From positions 1 through 56,391 of the forward strand of contig WALW01000001.1 of the NCBI GenBank assembly GCA_015522635.1: a DNA stretch of 56,391 bases, in the 5' to 3' direction. The stretch is from Candidatus Tiamatella incendiivivens. Its GTDB lineage: Archaea; Thermoproteota; Thermoprotei_A; Sulfolobales; Acidilobaceae. A program made the position numbers and the translations under genes. Under the pieces are notes generated by a model. That model was not told the origin of the DNA. It was given only the letters and a program-made list of their open reading frames with translations, and made no database searches. This document shows positions 6,261 through 10,626 of the stretch, in pieces (within the stretch, counting starts at the first letter, position 1; every line of letters starts with the position of its first letter).

Positions 6261-7238
6261 CTGGAGGCAATCAAAAGAATACTGGAAAGAAACCCGGGCG
6301 CGACAATCACAGAAATAGCCGAGGAGTCTAAACTCTCTAAAGCAACGGTCTCCAGAATAGTTAACAGACTAGAGAAAGAAGTATTAGTAACAACGATAAC
6401 TCGGGGAAGAAATAAACACGTATATCTAAACAAGACTAGAGAAAAGAGAAAACATGTAGTTATAGGCATCATTAGAGCAAGCGAGTATCTATTCTTACCA
6501 TTTCTAGTAAAGAAGCTTAGGTCAAGAGGATACATTGTAGAAGTAAAAGTATATAATGAGGGATTAACGCTAACGAGGCACATAGCAGAAGGAGTATTAG
6601 ACATGGGGTATAGCCCGCTAATAACACAGCTCTTATACTACAGGTTTAATCCGACATATAAGATCATATATGGAGGAGTTTACGGAGGTGCTGGCGTATT
6701 ATCTAATCCCCGTTCTATATTAGATAAAAGCGGAAGCACACCCATATCTACGATGGAAACATGTATCAGATCGTTTGATAGGGCCATAGACGTCCAGTAT
6801 TATTACAGCGGAGAGAGTATCCTAAACGCGTTGAGTAAAGGAGAGATAAAGATTGGAGCCATATGGGAGCCATATCTATCGGAAGGAATCAAAATGGGAT
6901 ACAGACTAGAGGCTCAATGCTCTGAACTAGTTGCACCGTATTGCTGCACCTTGGCAGTAAACGTTGAGTTTTTAGAGGAAGAACAAACTCTACGTTTACT
7001 TGTTGAAAAATCACTTGAAGAATATAAGAATGATCCTCTTAGAATGGCGTCATGGTACGCTAGAGTAATTCGGACACCAGTAGCCATGTTGAAGAAGTCT
7101 TACAAGTCATACAGTATCTCAGGAGAGGTTGATAGAAATCAAGTCTATAGAATACTGAACAGAGTAGGCGTGAAGCTGCCTAGTCCCTCCATGATGCTGG
7201 AGCCGATTGACTGTCAGTCCTCGTCCATCAATGCGTAG
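6261..7238 (+). CDS. predicted one-component regulator: winged helix fused to periplasmic-binding-protein-like domain
   Basis: The frame encodes about 325 aa. Residues 1-60 form a winged helix: an EAIKRILERNPGATITEIAE segment, then the recognition helix SKLSKATVSRIVNRLEKE. The rest resembles a type 2 periplasmic-binding fold of the NMT1/SsuA kind (VVIGIIRASEYLFLPFLVKKL, then GEIKIGAIWEPYLSEG), without a signal peptide, so it should sense a ligand inside the cell. The first in-frame ATG is at 6603, inside the ligand domain. I place the start at CTG 6261 because TGAGG lies 8 nt upstream. Alternatively it starts at ATG 6247 with one base missing before codon 6. It diverges from the symporter, which it may regulate. 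Its 3' end overlaps the convergent gene by 25 bp. Confidence 0.65.
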   Translation: MEAIKRILERNPGATITEIAEESKLSKATVSRIVNRLEKEVLVTTITRGRNKHVYLNKTREKRKHVVIGIIRASEYLFLPFLVKKLRSRGYIVEVKVYNEGLTLTRHIAEGVLDMGYSPLITQLLYYRFNPTYKIIYGGVYGGAGVLSNPRSILDKSGSTPISTMETCIRSFDRAIDVQYYYSGESILNALSKGEIKIGAIWEPYLSEGIKMGYRLEAQCSELVAPYCCTLAVNVEFLEEEQTLRLLVEKSLEEYKNDPLRMASWYARVIRTPVAMLKKSYKSYSISGEVDRNQVYRILNRVGVKLPSPSMMLEPIDCQSSSINA

Positions 7239-7723
7239 TATGATTCTATTACTGTTTCTGCGAGATCTCCAGGAACCTTGTACTGGTTGACTAGTACCTT
7301 GTAAATCTCGCTTCCAGTTAGTCCTTTCACATTTAATTCTCTAACCAAAGACAACACGCTGTCAAACAGTTTCCTGCTGAGATCATCATCTATAGTGAAT
7401 AACCCTTGAATCACCGTAGACACACATATCTTGAAAGCTTCCGTATTTCCGATACAAGGCAACGGCAGATCGCATATAAGCTTTACTCCTTCTAGGTTTT
7501 TAGAGGCTTTTACCATTGGAATATCGGATAATTCTTTTCCTTGTTTCTGTCTAATTCTCTCAGTTTCAACTCTTAGGAAATCTTTTTGCACGATGCGTAT
7601 GATTAGGTTCTTGTTAAAAAAGAAAAGATTTACTATGCAGATCTCGTTCCCACACTCATATACCATCGAGTCTCCGAATTCTTCTTCCAGTATGTTCATA
7701 AGGTTAGTTAATTTTTCCTCCAA
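7214..7723 (-). CDS. hypothetical protein, about 169 aa
   Basis: No family is recognised. It is soluble, mixed alpha/beta and acidic. A C-terminal helical segment (LTGSEIYKVLVNQYKV, then GDLAETVIESYYALMDED) looks like a small compact domain. I prefer the TTG start at 7723, which has GGTGA 5 nt upstream; the upstream GTG at 7732 falls within that SD. The end overlaps the convergent regulator gene by 25 bp. The conclusion that it is real rests on the SD, an intact frame and normal composition. Confidence 0.6.
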   Translation of the reverse strand: MEEKLTNLMNILEEEFGDSMVYECGNEICIVNLFFFNKNLIIRIVQKDFLRVETERIRQKQGKELSDIPMVKASKNLEGVKLICDLPLPCIGNTEAFKICVSTVIQGLFTIDDDLSRKLFDSVLSLVRELNVKGLTGSEIYKVLVNQYKVPGDLAETVIESYYALMDED

Positions 7724-7772
7724 AAAATTCACCAGAGAAATTTGTGAAGTTTATAAAAAAAGAAATTGTCGT

Positions 7773-9371
7773 TTAGGAAAGAATTGTTAGTGTTGTGTTG
7801 CATTCCATTTCCAGTATTATTAGGATTGGTTGTACTTGTGGACATACAGTTCCAGTTTCTACTTCTGCATTACGGATCAGGGATGATGCGTCCTTCAGAT
7901 CTGACATTGCAACTGTGGTATTATCCGTGTTCGGAGCTTTGTTTAGGTATTGTAGAGCTAAGCGGAGATTATTTATCACAGTATTATTGGTAGCATTACA
8001 GGATTTTTGTTCCACGATTATAGCAAATTTAGTGTCTTTTATGAGAGTTCTAACTTCCATCTTGTAAACGATTTCCTTTGCCATTCTTATTTGGCGTCCA
8101 GTGTGCTGCATTCCTTTGAAGTCGTTTTGTGCCATTTCCTCCACGAGGGATACTAGTTTACTTACTGACTTTAGAAGGCCTTGCGTTTCCATAAATCCCT
8201 TCGGTAGCATAGTTGTTGTTTCTTGGATTAGGCCTTGTGTTTCATTTATAAGTGACAAGAGGTTTGATTTGGTCTGATTCAAGTTTGGCGATCCATTCCA
8301 AGCTTCTGTTAATGCTTTATGATACAATGATGTTATGTTATTCAGGTTGCTTGCTATAGTTTTAAGATTGTTCTTTATGTTCTGTGGTAGAGCAGCGTTT
8401 TGTTCTATGTCGCTAATTATTTCAGATGCCCTTTGAAGTCTAAATGAAATCATTGTTAAATGCATTTGTGACTTTTCCACCATACTGGCCCTATTCTGAA
8501 AGTGGGAGATAGCTTCTGCTTGCATGGTTCCATAATTGTGTAGCATTTTGAAAGCGGCTATAGTTACCCATAGCTTTGTACAGTTTACTGTGTTGTTCAA
8601 CTCTTTAATAGTATTTATGAGAACTTTATTCTCCATTGAAAGCTTCTCTTCAACATGCATTAGGTTGTTAGCTGGTCCCTTTAATCCCCTGTTCTCTAAT
8701 TCAACCTTTTTCATGGCTAGCATCTGTATTTTCATATTTGATTGCACTAGCCTCTTTTCTAAGGTTTTCATTATAACCTGTTTAAAGTGGCATGCTGTTA
8801 ATGAGTCAATTATATGTTTAGCCTCAATTATATTATCTCTAGCGTTTGTCAAGTAATGCGATACGGTACTAGCTGTTCCATTGCTACAATTCCCATTTGA
8901 TTCCTTGAGAATATCCAGCGCCTCAGTAACATTCGCCTTTGCTTCTTCTAAATATGTCAGTGCCTGGGTTAGAGGTTCATTATAATATCCTTTGGTACTT
9001 GTATTTAATCTATAAACCATGTTATTGAGCTTTGTTACAGTGTAATTCATTCCTATAGCTATTCTGTATAAACCTCTGCAATGATGAGTTGTCTGGTTTG
9101 ATAGCATCATGAATGCTTGTGCTACTAGAATATCGGCTAACGTGGAGTTAGTCTGCCTTGCTTGCGCTGCCTCTTCTAAAATACTAATAACTTGGTTGCT
9201 GGCTTTTAATTTTCCTTGATTAATTAATTCGAGTAATATTGTTTCTGGATATAATTTCTGGGCTGATTCGGCTGAAGTATTCTCTGATAATATGCTGAAG
9301 TTTCCAACTGCCGGAGCTATTAATGCTATTAGGAGGAAGACCGCGATTACCTTTAATTTTAGGGTCTCCAT
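7773..9371 (-). CDS. secreted helical protein with many N-glycosylation sequons
   Basis: About 532 aa. A short basic N-terminus and the hydrophobic stretch VIAVFLLIALIAPAVG form a signal peptide. The rest is almost entirely helical, with Leu/Ile/Met heptad character and many Asn-X-Ser/Thr sequons (for example NTS, NST, NQT, NCT). Several Cys residues could form disulphides. There is no C-terminal membrane segment, so it is probably released or held on the surface by partners. The start is ATG 9371, with GGTGAT just upstream; GTG 9380 is inside that SD. It lies downstream of the membrane winged-helix gene in the same direction, behind a cluster of GTTCC repeats. Function unknown. Confidence 0.7.
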   Translation of the reverse strand: METLKLKVIAVFLLIALIAPAVGNFSILSENTSAESAQKLYPETILLELINQGKLKASNQVISILEEAAQARQTNSTLADILVAQAFMMLSNQTTHHCRGLYRIAIGMNYTVTKLNNMVYRLNTSTKGYYNEPLTQALTYLEEAKANVTEALDILKESNGNCSNGTASTVSHYLTNARDNIIEAKHIIDSLTACHFKQVIMKTLEKRLVQSNMKIQMLAMKKVELENRGLKGPANNLMHVEEKLSMENKVLINTIKELNNTVNCTKLWVTIAAFKMLHNYGTMQAEAISHFQNRASMVEKSQMHLTMISFRLQRASEIISDIEQNAALPQNIKNNLKTIASNLNNITSLYHKALTEAWNGSPNLNQTKSNLLSLINETQGLIQETTTMLPKGFMETQGLLKSVSKLVSLVEEMAQNDFKGMQHTGRQIRMAKEIVYKMEVRTLIKDTKFAIIVEQKSCNATNNTVINNLRLALQYLNKAPNTDNTTVAMSDLKDASSLIRNAEVETGTVCPQVQPILIILEMECNTTLTILS

Positions 9372-9445
9372 GACTATCACCTTTTTTGTTTCTGACTTCT
9401 TTATTTGGTGTTCGTTTTAGATAAGGGTCATAGTGAAACACACGA

Positions 9446-9478
9446 GTTCCAAATTGTTCCACTTAGGTGGAACGTTCC
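9446..9478. promoter_or_regulatory. clustered GTTCC/GGAAC half-sites, putative operator
   Basis: This 33-bp stretch holds GTTCC at 9446-9450 and 9456-9460, GGAAC at 9469-9473 and GTTCC at 9474-9478. Together they make the inverted repeat GTTCCAC-TTAG-GTGGAAC (9456-9473) and the overlapping palindrome GGAACGTTCC (9469-9478). It lies about 50-60 bp upstream of an AAATAAAG TATA-like box (about 9400-9407) of the secreted-protein gene. It also lies just past the stop of the membrane winged-helix gene. This arrangement suits cooperative activator binding; the alternative of a terminator hairpin is not excluded. Confidence 0.5.
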
Positions 9479-9481
9479 TTG

Positions 9482-10534
9482 CTAGCTGTTTGCTAGGAGA
9501 TCCCGGCCTTTGTTTGTTAGGCTAATTTCCACTTTACCTATACCCTTGCTCGTTTCTATTAGACCCATTTCCTCGAGTTTTCTTATTCTTCTCCACACAA
9601 CCGATTTGCTTAGACCGCTTTCTTTTGCTAAGCTCGAAATGCTGTGACCGCCTTTTTTAATTAAATTGAGTAAAAGGAAGTCTCTATCATCGATTCTTGA
9701 CTCGATTAGATCAAAACCATTTTCAGATGTCGTTTTCTTATGTGATAAAACATAAATAGCCAAAACCACAGCGGCCAAGAATAATCCCAGGATTATATAC
9801 GTCCAAGTATCTTTTCTCATAGTTCTATAGATAGGTGTTGATGTTTGAGTCGTACCTGTTGTTGATGTTCCTTGAGAAGCGGTTGTAGACTGGGTATATG
9901 ACCCGGATACTGTACTACTTCTACTTTGTGATCCTGTCGTGCTGACTCCTCCTTGAGAAGTAGTTGTAGACTGGGTATATGACCCGGATACTGTAGTGCT
10001 GGTTCCCCCTGGCATTGTTGAGGTTGTTGTATAAGTAGTAATAGAATAGTATATTGTATAGACTCCTGGGTTGAGATATGTCAGTGTTATTCTGCTATAA
10101 TTTGCGTAGATATTAGGGGAATCACTTGCATATACTAAGCTACCATTAGTTGGAAGAATAATCGTCGATTTCCCCGAAGCATGTATTTCGAGGAGATAGG
10201 TATCGGATACAGAAGTCGGATATATAATATATGACAGTTGAATGCTCTGAGTATCGTTGTTTAAGAATACAGTAATCTCACCTCCTCCTACAAGTACTGG
10301 GAGCGGAGTCCCATTCTGATTTACTGCTACAACACTCTCCTCGAAAGTTCCGGAATCCTCTGGAATTGTCAGGTTCGTTAACCCTTGAACTTGTTTAATG
10401 TAGGTAACAACATAAACAATACCATCTCTACAGTCATATGTGCTAGAAATTACTGGTGTTTCAGCCGATACCGAAGGCAGAAATACTAATAGAATAATGG
10501 TTAATACAGAAATTATGCTCAGTAGTTTCCTCAC
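9482..10534 (-). CDS. membrane-anchored winged-helix regulator with extracellular domain and Ser/Thr-rich stalk
   Basis: A 350-aa type I membrane protein. It has a signal peptide (1-24, ending VSA), an extracellular beta-rich domain (about 25-165), a Ser/Thr/Gln stalk with a repeated VSGSYTQSTT unit (about 170-235) and one membrane helix (TYIILGLFLAAVVLAIYVL, about 245-263). A cytoplasmic winged helix follows (about 285-350, SISSLAKESGLSKSVVWRRI and a wing before GLIETSKG). The layout implies a sensor that binds DNA while anchored in the membrane; archaeal membrane-bound one-component regulators are known. The GTG start has GGTGAGG upstream. It diverges from reverse gyrase and precedes the secreted helical protein, a plausible target or partner. 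Confidence 0.8.
   Translation of the reverse strand: MRKLLSIISVLTIILLVFLPSVSAETPVISSTYDCRDGIVYVVTYIKQVQGLTNLTIPEDSGTFEESVVAVNQNGTPLPVLVGGGEITVFLNNDTQSIQLSYIIYPTSVSDTYLLEIHASGKSTIILPTNGSLVYASDSPNIYANYSRITLTYLNPGVYTIYYSITTYTTTSTMPGGTSTTVSGSYTQSTTTSQGGVSTTGSQSRSSTVSGSYTQSTTASQGTSTTGTTQTSTPIYRTMRKDTWTYIILGLFLAAVVLAIYVLSHKKTTSENGFDLIESRIDDRDFLLLNLIKKGGHSISSLAKESGLSKSVVWRRIRKLEEMGLIETSKGIGKVEISLTNKGRDLLANS
9870..9995 (-). repeat. in-frame 45-bp direct repeat in stalk-coding region
   Basis: Two 45-bp copies, at 9870-9914 and 9951-9995, differ at 2 positions. Their starts are 81 bp apart (27 codons), so the reading frame is kept. They encode the repeated Ser/Thr/Gln-rich unit of the extracellular stalk. 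The near identity at DNA level suggests recent duplication, and the stalk length may vary between strains. Confidence 0.9.
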
Positions 10535-10552
10535 CTAACCTCACCTAGCCCC

Positions 10553-10576
10553 ATGGGATATTTTACACTATCCCAT
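10553..10576. promoter_or_regulatory. inverted repeat ATGGGATA-N8-TATCCCAT, putative operator
   Basis: Perfect 8-bp arms separated by 8 nt lie between the shared TATA box (10577-10590) and the leftward start codon at 10534. They would cover the transcription start of the membrane regulator gene. This suits repression or autoregulation. No oligo-T follows in a position that would argue for a terminator. Confidence 0.55.
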
Positions 10577-10590: not shown

Positions 10591-10626
10591 GTATAACTGG
10601 TATATTCTGTAATCTAGGTGTATCGG

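Follow-up and report, generated by a model that had tools for sequence, protein, structure and literature searches.

Transmembrane transcription regulators (TTRs) are a functional class that, according to the survey defining it, is found in 367 of 404 archaeal species and is somewhat enriched in Thermoproteota (PMC10269533). Among described archaeal systems, ArnR and ArnR1 of Sulfolobus acidocaldarius are membrane-bound one-component helix-turn-helix (HTH) regulators of surface structures, which use inverted repeats between −43 and −84 for activation (PMC6396743), and EarA of the methanogen fla operon is an activator of surface-structure genes with four 6-bp sites directly upstream of the transcription factor B (TFB) recognition element (BRE) (PMC5512572). 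Here, we analysed a locus in a 56,391-nucleotide stretch of Candidatus Tiamatella incendiivivens (contig WALW01000001.1, positions 1 to 56,391), hereafter the window, in which a gene for a membrane-anchored winged-helix protein (the regulator) is followed by a gene for a secreted helical protein. Comparison with related genomes strongly supports that the anchored regulator would act on the secreted gene through a cluster of half-sites lying between the two genes, and activation is the likely outcome. We put the probability of the whole reading, a dedicated membrane-anchored one-component module for surface regulation, at roughly 0.7.

The regulator carries a predicted DNA-binding domain (HTH_24, winged HTH fold) and at least one transmembrane region, the two features by which TTRs are defined in the survey. 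It belongs to this broad class, and the comparative operator evidence suggests that it would act on transcription from the membrane. With ArnR and ArnR1 it shares the design of a membrane-bound one-component HTH protein, and with EarA the predicted placement of several short sites directly upstream of the BRE of a surface gene.

Regulator, half-sites and secreted protein in the window

The features of the locus are as follows.

10534 to 9482, minus strand: regulator gene, GTG start, 350 amino acids (open reading frame (ORF) call, HTH_24 match, AlphaFold2 model, homologues)
9433..9478, strand-neutral: putative operator with five half-sites, between the regulator stop codon and the TATA-like box (sequence, genus conservation, order-wide counterparts)
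9425-9415, minus strand: TATA-like box CTTATCTAAAA of the secreted gene (genus alignment, positional analysis)
9381-9376, minus strand: Shine-Dalgarno-like GGTGAT ahead of ATG 9371 (read from the sequence)
9371 to 7773, minus strand: gene for the secreted, all-helical, sequon-rich protein, 532 amino acids from ATG 9371, GTG 9380 also possible (ORF, predicted fold, sequon excess)
7214..7732, minus strand: ORF of 172 amino acids directly downstream of the secreted gene, without a Pfam match; possible third member of the cluster

The ORF calls place both the regulator gene and the secreted-protein gene on the minus strand. From the N- to the C-terminus, the regulator consists of a signal peptide, a beta-sandwich ectodomain, a stalk rich in Ser and Thr, a single membrane helix and, on the cytoplasmic side, a winged helix. 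The initial annotation had proposed an extracellular domain, a stalk, one membrane helix and a winged helix from the letters of the sequence, and the AlphaFold2 model (14 sequences), the Pfam match and the residue composition agreed with it. The modelled ectodomain is all-beta (residues 28-165, pLDDT mostly >90), Ser and Thr account for 44 of the 75 residues between 166 and 240, and the stalk is disordered in the model from about 172 to 240. The modelled membrane helix (240-265), with a hydropathy peak at 245-263, is kept across our alignment of the regulator family (A1). The winged helix (residues 282-349), which matches HTH_24 at E = 4.6e-12, is the best-conserved portion of the protein. No Pfam family was found for the ectodomain.

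The next gene in the same direction had been predicted to encode a secreted helical protein with many sequons, and this also held. After the signal peptide the protein contains 18 sequons against 7.8 expected from its composition (p = 0.0005), and it was modelled as all-helical, with helices of up to about 60 residues, at moderate confidence (pLDDT 72; AlphaFold2 with a three-sequence alignment). A PDB fold search with this protein returned nothing at E ≤ 0.001. Its start is most likely ATG 9371, since GGTGAT precedes this codon and a start at this position agrees with the alignment of the genus members; the alternative GTG at 9380 overlaps GGTGAT.

All four GTTCC/GGAAC half-sites noticed at the outset precede the secreted gene (9446-9450, 9456-9460, 9469-9473, and 9474-9478), and a fifth, GTTTC on the minus strand, was added at 9435-9439. 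They form the palindromes GTTCCACTTAGGTGGAAC (18 bp, perfect, 9456-9473) and GGAACGTTCC (9469-9478), and GTTCCACTTAGGTGGAAC is the sole perfect match to GTTCCAC-N4-GTGGAAC in the genome. Half-sites are more clustered here than in shuffled versions of these 150 bp (p = 0.0016). When the region was aligned with those of the two other genus members, the half-sites and the TATA-like box stood out as conserved, and the core TTATCTAAAACGAACA of the box was invariant across the three. ArnR-type boxes (TCGAC-N5-GTCGA) were not found in the intergenic region, which carries GTTCC/GGAAC sites instead.

The initial annotation had named a lack of conservation of the gene pair as a ground for giving up the functional link. 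All three genus members keep the pair and its site cluster with the gene order unchanged, and in G045 and G046 the strand is also the same. Since homologues of the secreted protein are confined to the genus, the exact pair can be followed by sequence only genus-wide.

Regulators, partners and half-site arrays across the order

A single-sequence search detected relatives of the regulator in 29 of 48 genomes of the family, some of these matches covering the winged helix only. A profile search found relatives in 186 of the order's 214 genomes, representing 69 of its 78 genera, and some members are also present in other orders of the class. The window regulator matched the A1 profile at E = 3e-81, the window protein itself being included in A1. 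Scans of named-genome contigs with P0001 and P0002 did not find homologues. The genomes covered are taken to include Aeropyrum pernix, Acidilobus, Caldisphaera, Staphylothermus, and Sulfolobus acidocaldarius. Only three genomes of the order that are at least 90% complete lack the regulator (G102, G103, and G106); all belong to genus g39, whose genomes retain weak matches to the winged helix alone. We take g39 to be Ignicoccus and G102 to be I. hospitalis. The genome presumed to be that of Thermosphaera aggregans, a species reportedly without a surface layer (S-layer), keeps a divergent regulator match, and a rule of "no S-layer, no regulator" was therefore not relied on. Ignicoccus has no S-layer (PMC5744192), and the absence of the regulator there is regarded as a hint.

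To describe the genes beside the regulators, we surveyed 101 neighbourhoods containing 85 anchored regulators and counted an adjoining gene as a partner when its predicted product was secreted, poor in Pro and Gly, rich in helix and at least 350 amino acids long. ORFs were taken from the first start codon and membrane helices from hydropathy, so that single calls may err. A helical partner adjoins 47 of the 85 anchored regulators, compared with 8 of 513 other genes in the same loci (Fisher, 7e-38). The pairing was seen in eight families, with the partner upstream, downstream, divergent, or convergent, and the partner proteins together hold 744 sequons against 170 expected. They group into a few sequence families, with weak and mostly coiled-coil-type Pfam matches. 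The window's family is linked to the others by one weak phmmer match at most; beyond the genus, neither HMM searches nor hhalign related the secreted protein of the window to any other partner. Because homology of the partner is undetectable beyond the genus, we claim for these loci the same architecture and not common ancestry. This general architecture of regulator and secreted protein spans eight families of the order and beyond. At nine Sulfolobaceae loci (L162-L164, L170, L171, L196, L205, L206, and L208), the neighbours of the regulator are small secreted beta-rich proteins of about 160-230 amino acids, and most of their genes are preceded by GTTTC/GTTCC arrays, in many cases within a shared divergent promoter. 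In the genome taken to be that of Sulfolobus acidocaldarius, the homologue of the regulator (G198:C1, about 2,079,600-2,080,430) adjoins a secreted protein of 166 amino acids with GTTTCA sites.

The putative operator was then compared across the order by asking whether the 150 bp ahead of the partner gene contain at least three GTTYC/TTCCC half-sites. The window locus has such an array, as do 34 of 45 partner promoters, compared with 46 of 383 intergenic controls (p = 5e-19) and 6.5 of 45 in dinucleotide shuffles. In a held-out test on 20 new loci, for which the threshold was set beforehand, arrays were found at 11 of 14 partner promoters against 10 of 141 controls (p = 5e-9). The half-sites are kept upstream of the secreted gene in the genus and recur in loci that had not contributed to their definition. 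An unbiased 6-mer enrichment over the 150 bp upstream of partners gave CGTTCC (2e-16) and GTTTCA (3e-10) as the top words for regulators with an xxLWRR/H recognition helix, and TTCCCG (1e-10) and TTTCCC (2e-9) for those with LYRR. Order-wide, the strongest 6-mers are the half-site first reported in the window and its close variants.

The two regulator types differ in their genus-averaged site preference (p = 1e-4; p = 0.002 when permuted within families). One genome, G217, holds two paralogous systems (L191 and L192), in which a PKTPLYRR helix occurs with TTCCC sites and a family-B partner, and a PKATFWRH helix with GTTTCA sites and a family-A partner. In genomes of the Caldisphaera type, the neighbour of the partner is an ectodomain-membrane protein without a winged helix, yet the TTCCC array of the partner gene matches an LYRR regulator encoded elsewhere, which implies action in trans. 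Site type, as read from these sequences, tracks regulator type and partner type, also between the two paralogous systems of one genome. The conserved pair, the conserved and recurring sites, and the fact that sites and recognition helix differ together strongly support a link from the regulator to the secreted gene.

Site position, proposed mechanism and alternatives

The position of the arrays bears on the sign of the regulation. Relative to TATA boxes called by a simple consensus score, some calls of which are probably wrong (e.g. L122-L126), 123 of 165 sites lie upstream of the box within 70 bp and 3 overlap it. For 16 of the 45 partners, the distance from the TATA centre to the nearest upstream site is 13-17 bp, often about 16 bp, against a background of 2-3%, and neighbouring half-sites are most commonly spaced 9-12 bp apart. 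Archaeal activators typically bind upstream of the BRE (PMC5512572), and this position, which also resembles that of the ArnR boxes, makes it likely that the regulator activates the secreted gene. The initial annotation had proposed that the regulator activates the secreted protein from the clustered sites. The link between regulator, sites and gene stands by comparison; for "activates", the argument is the placement of the sites upstream of BRE and TATA.

Genome comparison shows the pairing, the predicted operator and its position, and how the operator sequence partitions according to the types of regulator and partner. On this basis we propose the following mechanism. The regulator would stay in the membrane, with its ectodomain on the Ser/Thr stalk facing the space beneath the surface layer and its winged helix facing the DNA. 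Oligomers of the winged helix would bind GTTYC half-sites arrayed directly upstream of BRE and TATA, in many cases at intervals of about one helical turn. Lying along one face of the DNA beside these elements, the oligomer would activate the secreted gene, most likely by helping TATA-binding protein (TBP) and TFB. The product would be secreted and probably glycosylated, a helical protein located in the quasi-periplasm or the surface layer. We infer direct binding by the anchored regulator, the positive sign, and an ectodomain that monitors the condition of the secreted protein or that of the surface layer.

Several observations weigh against this interpretation. Under the criteria used, about 45% of the regulators have no adjacent helical partner. 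Sulfolobaceae break the relation between residue and site: their LYRR-like helices go with GTTTCA arrays, and their partners are small and beta-rich; a clean rule that W binds TTYCA and Y binds TTCCC was dropped for this reason and kept as a tendency only. Partner family and regulator type are co-inherited, so that the site type could follow the partner lineage and not the helix residue. The contrast of TTYCA and TTCCC was drawn once the enrichment results were known, and related genomes are not independent. Finally, Aeropyrum-like promoters have one half-site just downstream of TATA as well as sites upstream, which would also fit repression.

The last point speaks for regarding the regulator as a repressor of the secreted gene, released by an envelope signal, with the array covering or flanking the core promoter. 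Winged helices of the MarR/Lrp type are often repressors. However, among the sites counted above those overlapping TATA are few, and the proximal site often stands beside the BRE at a fixed position, where archaeal activators usually bind (PMC5512572). We consider repression an unlikely but serious alternative.

The ectodomain protein could instead be chiefly a structural anchor for the secreted protein, with the winged helix being secondary. This is suggested by sister proteins that have the ectodomain and membrane helix, lack a winged helix, and adjoin the partner (L054, L138, L157, L173-L176, L194, L197, and L198); they are possibly anchors or competing receptors. Nevertheless, the winged helix is the part of the regulator that is best conserved, and an anchor would leave the operator array and its co-variation unexplained. 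Thus, a mainly structural role appears quite unlikely.

A different, soluble regulator of surface genes might use the arrays, the anchored regulator being a mere neighbour. A global regulator could be common to many surface genes, but the site type partitions with the recognition helix of the anchored regulator, even between two systems in one genome. Additionally, the three-half-site pattern occurs at only two places in the window's genome (G000), that is, at one besides the locus, and a reversed control gave a similar number; no large regulon is therefore visible, and a wider regulon in this genome was rejected. A soluble regulator is accordingly improbable. It is very improbable that the inverted repeat is a terminator or RNA hairpin of the regulator gene. 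GTTCCACCTAAGTGGAAC can fold into a 7-bp hairpin right after the regulator stop codon, but neither a T-run nor a terminator-like match was found at the palindrome, for which the terminator reading was rejected, and other genomes have direct repeats (e.g. GGTTTCACGGGTTTCACGGCGGGTTTCACGG, L122-L126) or sites between divergent genes.

Within the preferred reading, activation by an anchored regulator, the topology of the protein suggests that it may sense an envelope signal, as initially supposed. That the ectodomain is exported, that sister proteins lacking the winged helix are frequent, and that the target is secreted all suggest contact between the ectodomain and the partner or surface layer. 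In a more specific form, which we offer tentatively and rather doubt as a whole, the ectodomain would directly bind the secreted helical protein or its surface layer and the winged helix would report assembly or occupancy. If so, a surface-layer homeostat would operate over almost the whole archaeal order, with vacant ectodomains switching the partner gene on and occupied ones switching it off, and at least two co-inherited subtypes of the code between winged helix and half-site would have arisen by divergence.

Other features were noted around the locus and among the relatives. The 172-amino-acid ORF at 7214-7732 is kept at that place in all three genus members and is found nowhere else in the family. 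Upstream of the regulator gene, a divergent gene at 10618 is read as reverse gyrase from its own sequence. A winged-HTH gene at 6269-7234 (plus strand) is a full-length open frame homologous to a 322-amino-acid ORF of G045 (L039 8958-9926), and it has no ATG, GTG, or TTG near its N-terminus, the mechanical ORF beginning at 6603; a rare start codon or a lost start is possible. At L177 5953-6877 (G096), the ectodomain-membrane part (230 amino acids) and the winged helix (91 amino acids) lie in two overlapping frames, which suggests a frameshift, programmed or not.

Significance and comparison with known systems

For the monitoring and regulation of archaeal surface layers, a regulator, a target, and a DNA site are here defined as candidates in a module conserved from Sulfolobus to Aeropyrum-like and Staphylothermus-like genomes. 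Being defined and widely conserved, the combination is directly testable in a genetically tractable host. The paired regulators and operators, including the two paralogous systems of one genome, form a natural data set for a winged-helix recognition code. No description of a module of this regulator, secreted protein and operator was found in the open-access literature searched, most subscription papers lying outside this scope, and the system is provisionally regarded as undescribed.

Known families touch single parts of the module. The best PDB fold match of the regulator model is the N-terminal beta domain of M1 aminopeptidases (E = 3e-6), over 170-200 aligned columns taken to cover mainly the ectodomain; with about 10% identity, a low TM-score relative to the whole query and no peptidase domain in the regulator, this is a resemblance of fold only. 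Seven of the 14 members of the regulator alignment match Pfam DUF7343 (PF24034; best, 2.2e-9), whereas the window regulator has no match to it at E ≤ 0.01, nor is it among its best 25 families at E ≤ 1. The TTRs are a class and not one homologous family, and the accessible part of the survey does not describe the ectodomain, the secreted partner or the operator (PMC10269533).

EarA differs from the anchored regulator in site, lineage, and target. ArnR has an N-terminal HTH, a putative HAMP domain, a sensory domain, two C-terminal membrane helices, and TCGAC-N5-GTCGA boxes (PMC6396743). In contrast, the anchored regulator carries an exported ectodomain at its N-terminus and a winged helix at its C-terminus, with one membrane helix between them, and its candidate sites are GTTYC/TTCCC; it is not of the ArnR type by domain order, number of membrane helices, or site. 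Bacterial membrane regulators of the ToxR/CadC type have a domain outside, one membrane helix, and an N-terminal winged helix inside. Likened by architecture alone, they would work on the same principle as the anchored regulator, with the domain order inverted.

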